Notes under the pieces: model-generated
The model's input: only the letters and a program-made list of their open reading frames with translations
Database searches by the model: none
Told to the model about the DNA's origin: nothing
Translations under genes and position numbers: made by a program
Shown here: piece after piece, positions 15,322-15,419 of the stretch
Position numbering within the stretch: the stretch's first letter is position 1
How the letters are laid out: every line of letters begins with the position of its first letter
Assembly: GCA_937934305.1 (NCBI GenBank)
Contig: CALHAG010000017.1
Location: 1-39,982, forward strand
Source of the DNA: Candidatus Caldarchaeum subterraneum
GTDB taxonomy: Archaea; Thermoproteota; Nitrososphaeria_A; Caldarchaeales; Caldarchaeaceae
Length of the DNA: 39,982 bases
Direction of reading: 5' to 3'

Positions 15322-15379
15322 CTGCTCAGAGCTCAAGATCCCAGTCACCGGTTCAGACTGGTCAGACTCATCATAGCAG
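15322..15379 (-). ncRNA. candidate C/D box sRNA (2'-O-methylation guide)
   Basis: Minus-strand reading shows every element of an archaeal C/D sRNA in order: 5' stem CTGC (15379-15376); C box ATGATGA (15374-15368); 11-nt guide GTCTGACCAGT (15367-15357); D' box CTGA (15356-15353); 4-nt spacer ACCG; weak C' box GTGACTG (15348-15342); 12-nt guide GGATCTTGAGCT (15341-15330); D box CTGA (15329-15326); 3' stem GCAG (15325-15322), complementary to the 5' stem. A TATA element lies 26 nt before the stem. By the N+5 rule the D guide would modify the C of target AGCTC and the D' guide the second G of ACTGG. Targets not assigned; the C' box is degenerate, as is common. Confidence 0.72.
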
Positions 15380-15400
15380 TCACATAAATTGTTCAGCGTG

Positions 15401-15410
15401 TTCTTAAGGT
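15401..15410 (-). promoter_or_regulatory. TATA element of the candidate C/D box sRNA
   Basis: Minus strand ACCTTAAGAA, preceded by AAA, centred 26 nt before the 5' end of the sRNA stem (15379). It sits between the stop of the MBL gene (15420) and the sRNA, so the sRNA can be an independent transcription unit. Confidence 0.5.
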
Positions 15411-15419
15411 TTTGGCTTG

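Follow-up and report, generated by a model that had tools for sequence, protein, structure and literature searches.

A conserved C/D box sRNA of Caldarchaeum with two predicted guides for precursor tRNAs

Does the short gap between the genes for an MscS-like protein and a metallo-beta-lactamase-fold protein hold a genuine C/D box sRNA gene, and to which RNAs could its two guides be directed? The original prediction had placed such a gene, equipped with its own promoter, between these two genes in the window, i.e., the whole stretch of 39,982 nucleotides that was analysed. This position was borne out: the gap measures 131 bp, from the start of the MscS-like gene (15288, minus strand) to the end of the metallo-beta-lactamase-fold gene (15420, minus strand), and both flanking genes run in the same direction as the sRNA. 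The window contains no tRNA gene, hence the sRNA is not encoded in a tRNA intron.

Structure and conservation of the sRNA gene

All predicted elements, namely the C, D', weak C' and D boxes in order, guides of 11 and 12 nt, a spacer of 4 nt and a closing CTGC/GCAG stem, were located on the minus strand within a core of about 58 nt (15379-15322), delimited from the sequence and its homologues. Read 5' to 3' from 15379, the core comprises the 5' stem arm CTGC (15376-15379), a T, the C box ATGATGA (15368-15374), the D' guide GTCTGACCAGT (15357-15367), the D' box CTGA (15353-15356), the spacer ACCG (15349-15352), the degenerate C' box GTGACTG (15342-15348; ATGATNN in most relatives), the D guide GGATCTTGAGCT (15330-15341), the D box CTGA (15326-15329) and the 3' stem arm GCAG (15322-15325). 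The sequences quoted in the original prediction are the plus-strand complements of the guides and thus read as the expected targets. The features of archaeal C/D box sRNAs are present: a conserved RUGAUGA C box near the 5' end and a conserved CUGA D box near the 3' end, an internal D'/C' pair, a short terminal stem of the kink-turn type, 4 bp long at this locus, and guides of about 10-12 nt upstream of D and D', with the target nucleotide at box+5.

Comparison with Rfam gave a divided answer to the suggested covariance search. At the gathering threshold no match was obtained anywhere in the window, while a permissive scan ranked two archaeal C/D families, sR14 (RF01145, E=1.3e-4) and snoPyro_CD (RF00095), on top and placed them on exactly this span and strand. 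The score of 23.5 bits against sR14 lies well below the gathering cut-off of 38 bits and the guides differ from those of both families, so the sRNA is a member of neither.

The box pattern C-D'-D was found three times in the 1.56-Mb home genome (G000), compared to no match for a reversed control, and the exact match at this locus is G000:C17:15326-15374 on the minus strand. A BLAST search of 61 genomes returned a same-genus homologue (92% over 98 bases, E=7e-35) and, for most other members of the order, matches with E values from 1e-15 to 1e-5 whose alignments stop at the sRNA boundaries; by inspection, 26 of 43 same-order genomes carry the sRNA, boxes included. A pattern scan of 84,980 species yielded 48 matches, 33 archaeal (30 recognized by a box check and three with slightly altered boxes that look genuine by eye) and 15 bacterial; the latter lack the boxes and correspond to the expected chance background, which leaves the boxed form in archaea only. 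The archaeal loci belong mostly to Aigarchaeota/Caldarchaeia (Caldarchaeum, Pelearchaeum, Terraquivivens, Geocrenenecus, Wolframiiraptor, Benthortus and Calditenuis), and a few are recorded under broader or probably misassigned names (Nitrososphaerales, Thermoprotei, Thaumarchaeota).

Conservation is concentrated in the guides: the D' guide is near-invariant (GTCTG[A/G]CCAG in nearly all homologues) and the D guide core GATCTTGAGC is kept in all members found, whereas the surroundings of C', the flanks and the spacer, the last in both sequence and length, vary freely. The two innermost pairs of the closing stem form in all 26 parsed homologues, G-U pairs counted, despite changes of pair type between C-G, G-C and A-U (e.g., GC/GC, GG/CC and GA/TC). 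Moreover, the BRE/TATA-like element CAAAACCTTAAGAAC (15399-15413, minus strand) has counterparts in 28 of 35 homologues, placed 34-39 nt before the C box, and this spacing, as expected for initiation just before the closing stem, supports a promoter of the sRNA's own. Taken together, the order-wide conservation of boxes and guides and the compensating changes in the terminal stem confirm, on comparative grounds, that this is a real C/D box sRNA gene rather than an array of fortuitous boxes.

Predicted pairing of the D guide with the wobble base of tRNAs

The original prediction had called for matches of both guides to rRNA and tRNA. For tRNA this held for both guides, as shown below; for rRNA it did not, since neither guide had a conserved match in the home 16S rRNA and partial 23S rRNA or in the full 23S rRNAs of five relatives. 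The home 16S gene (G000:C15:18411-20538) is 2,128 nt long, implying an insertion of about 650 nt, and the home 23S match (on G000:C16) is interrupted by insertions and lacks its first third at the contig end.

Among 33 parsed tRNA genes of the home genome, the D guide had its five best matches in Leu(UAA), Leu(CAA), Ser(CGA), Leu(UAG) and Trp(CCA), each of which has the wobble base 34 at D+5, opposite a G of the guide. Not one of 1,500 shuffled guides placed all five of its best matches at N34, and the Leu tRNAs of the other genomes sampled keep the same register. That a single guide can cover Leu(UAA), Leu(CAA) and Ser(CGA) is explained by the G at D+5, which pairs with C34 or U34, and by two U's that tolerate A or G at positions 35 and 36; targets with U34 thereby require a G-U pair at the methylation site. 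One mismatch is present in Trp(CCA), Leu(UAG) and Gln(UUG/CUG), and in Trp and Gln it falls on N35, adjoining the target base, where it could prevent methylation.

Some of these tRNA genes are unusual in themselves. The gene at G000:C15:16442-16542 (minus strand) is called tRNA-Arg(cct) by ARAGORN and is, judging by folding and comparison, a tRNA-Trp(CCA) gene whose anticodon intron, GTCGTAATAGCTGGTCACGAGGCGTA, is 26 nt long. The genes for tRNA-Leu(UAA) (G000:C24:4293, minus strand) and tRNA-Leu(UAG) (G000:C2:232518, minus strand) each contain an extra D-loop intron, accompanied in the former by an anticodon-loop intron, and the Rfam tRNA search detected neither gene.

In the home genome, the D-guide duplex passes position 37 into the intron in Leu(UAA) (GGCTTAAG|ATC), Ser(CGA) (CTCGAG|ATC) and Trp (GGCTCCAG|GTC), which suggests that the substrate is probably the unspliced precursor tRNA. 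The same junction occurs in relatives in Leu(UAA), Leu(CAA), Ser(CGA), Trp, Gln(UUG), Gln(CUG) and one Pro(CGG), and it is absent from the relatives' introns of Tyr, His, Ala, most Thr, Arg, Lys, Glu, Pro(GGG) and Ser(UGA). In a hand tally restricted to loci found by means other than the D' motif described below, 21 of 27 introns of target tRNAs started with ATC as compared to 1 of 22 other introns (Fisher p=2e-7); the tRNA sampling beyond the home genome is partial and was in part selected by motif.

Complements of the D' guide in tRNA introns

Initially, the D' guide looked like an orphan. Leu D loops as its only target were rejected, as several of them (CCAGGTCA, CCTGGACA) fit the guide poorly, and it was this misfit that led to the introns being considered. 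The D loops of Val and Gly tRNAs (CTGGTAGGAC) have a central mismatch, and exact matches to CTGGTCAGAC in five genomes shared no common site beyond the sRNA itself; one of them, in G022, is a Gln intron.

The complement of the D' guide across the order reads CTGGTC(A/G)GAY and was first seen, as CTGGTCAGAY, in the pre-tRNA-Leu(UAA) introns of Wolframiiraptor. When CTGGTYRGRY was searched for together with a downstream T arm, 36 matches were found in 23 of 44 genomes of the order, compared to one for the reversed pattern. Inspection assigned about 34 of the 36 matches to tRNA genes, chiefly those for Gln(UUG), Gln(CUG), Ser(CGA) and Leu(UAA). In both Gln tRNAs the motif sits in D-loop introns; in Ser(CGA), in Leu(UAA) and in a single Leu(CAA) it sits in the anticodon intron, and one Met gene has it as well. 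Shorter or variant versions are present in the Trp introns of G000, G014 and G022. Against dinucleotide-shuffled introns the motif matches reached p values of 0.005 to 0.04 each, whereas most introns of other tRNAs were unremarkable and two reached p of about 0.02.

Of the home-genome matches to the D' guide, the best two fall in the Ser(CGA) and Trp introns, and both tRNAs are also predicted targets of the D guide; here, as in the rest of the family, the match consists of seven Watson-Crick pairs and one G-U (CTGGTCA) rather than the full ten. A G-U-containing match in Ile ranks level with these two introns, followed by Leu D loops (CTGGTCA), and several Leu introns lack the motif. Overall, the complementarities suggest that the set of tRNAs bound via the D' guide is largely the set bound via the D guide.

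A Met(CAU) tRNA gene (G006:C141:9619) has CTGGTCAGAC inside an apparent D-loop insertion, although the D guide matches its anticodon loop poorly. The home-genome gene for Gln(UUG) has no intron, whereas its counterparts in other families of the order have two, one of them bearing the D' motif, so that targets may differ between lineages.

The guide and its complements also appear to vary together. The D' guide of G014 and G022 is GTCTGGCCAG in place of GTCTGACCAG, and CTGGCC is found in the Trp intron of G014 and the Ser intron of G022, along with CTGGCCA in the Leu D loops of G022. Where the Leu(UAA) D loop is altered to CTGGACA or CCAGG (Wolframiiraptor, G036), the motif is located in the intron instead, and Leu(CAA) of G029 and G036 has CTGGTCA in the D loop and no motif in the intron. 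By contrast, G031 combines an A-type guide with a Leu(CAA) D loop of CTGGCCA. With few cases, and with the A/G covariation based on two genomes, these patterns are no more than suggestive of co-evolution of guide and target.

Proposed mechanism and relation to known guides

The boxes, their conservation, the complementarities, the N34 register and the intron enrichment are all read from sequence, and we consider it quite probable that they reflect a dual-guide C/D sRNA that directs 2'-O-methylation of N34 in tRNAs with a pyrimidine at position 34, mainly as precursors, with the D' guide on the intron motif. Following this, we infer that the sRNA is transcribed and would assemble with L7Ae, Nop5 and fibrillarin. 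The D guide would then pair with the anticodon loop from about position 31-32, past N34 at D+5, as far as the opening bases of the canonical 37/38 intron, i.e., the GATC junction, reading Leu(UAG), Trp(CCA) and Gln(UUG/CUG) despite one mismatch, and N34 would be methylated mainly on the unspliced precursor. The D' guide would pair with CTGGTCA(GAY) in the anticodon intron (Ser(CGA), Trp and some Leu), in the Gln D-loop intron or in the Leu D-loop exon, a contact that may anchor the RNP on the precursor, and splicing, by taking away most of the pairing, would release it. The proposed mechanism is in line with the Nm34 measured in other archaea (Cm34 in Trp, ac4Cm34 in Gln(CUG), Um34 and s2Um34 in Gln(UUG) and Leu(UAG)) and with the view that C/D guides act on intron-containing pre-tRNAs (PMC7668247).

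That the sRNA might instead be an ordinary N34 guide for tRNA-Leu(UAA/CAA) only, with a D' guide that is orphan or has an unseen target and with intron matches that merely reflect intron structure or shared descent, appears unlikely. Such a reading would agree with the fact that Leu(UAA) and Leu(CAA) pair best with the D guide, that in some Ser introns base pairing within the inner helix of the splice motif could involve parts of the D' motif (ATC...GAY), and that tRNA-directed C/D sRNAs, those of Pyrobaculum as far as they are summarized in PMC7994747 included, usually have one orphan guide. However, the two guides are equally invariant, the complement of the D' guide shows strong enrichment at different positions in introns of different tRNAs that have little else in common, and the tRNAs bearing the motif are largely those with D-guide matches. 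We regard it as far less plausible still that the sRNA mainly masks the junction or intron so as to set the order of splicing or hold it back, or is itself tied up by free introns, with methylation secondary. The D guide does span the 5' splice junction and the D' guide the intron, where their pairing would presumably compete with the bulge-helix-bulge motif and any methyl group directed by the D' guide would be lost; against this, every top target has N34 precisely at D+5, also Leu(CAA), whose home-genome gene has no intron, and a methylation RNP is implied by the canonical C and D boxes. Fortuitous boxes in an intergenic gap that is not an expressed RNA gene, to which the score under the Rfam gathering threshold might point, deserve hardly any credence given the conservation, the promoter register and the compensating stem.

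The retention of so many tRNA introns by archaea, and above all by hyperthermophiles, still calls for an explanation. Within the preferred reading, that of a dual-guide sRNA acting on precursors, the pre-tRNA introns of Caldarchaeia, at least those of Ser(CGA), Trp, Gln(UUG), Gln(CUG), Leu(UAA) and Leu(CAA), might be kept as landing sites in two parts, the GATC junction and the CTGGTCAG motif, for a single trans-acting C/D sRNP, such that splicing releases the guide and methylation is tied to the unspliced state; from the sequences at hand, we see the case for and against this extension as evenly balanced. If true, introns of several tRNAs would gain a testable function as docking sites for one methylation guide, loss or gain of introns should track loss or gain of wobble-base methylation, one guide would serve a mixed set of isoacceptors, and an otherwise orphan guide would obtain a target.

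In the searchable literature, which does not extend to the main Pyrobaculum study, we found no description of a second guide arm reading a motif common to the introns of several tRNAs, which is no proof of absence, and no paper naming both Caldarchaeum and sRNA. The closest known systems are the C/D sRNAs of Pyrococcus for N34 of Leu(CAA), Leu(UAA), Met and Trp (PMC7994747), which share the C/D architecture, the N34 register at box+5 and the Leu(CAA), Leu(UAA) and Trp targets. Four such sRNAs are listed there, whereas in Caldarchaeum a single guide seems to serve as many as seven isoacceptors, and the second guide matches the precursors too, mostly within introns. In euryarchaea, Nm34 of Trp is likewise tied to the precursor: as cited in PMC11408192 and PMC7994747, the pre-tRNA-Trp intron itself encodes the C/D guide (D'Orval 2001; Singh 2004), whereas the Caldarchaeum guide has a gene of its own and the intron bears the complementary site. 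The tRNA-targeting C/D sRNAs of Pyrobaculum, to the extent that PMC7994747 relates them (Lui 2018), are alike in addressing tRNAs, the wobble position 34 included; in those, one guide acts on tRNA and the other has no known target, in contrast to the matches of both guides here.
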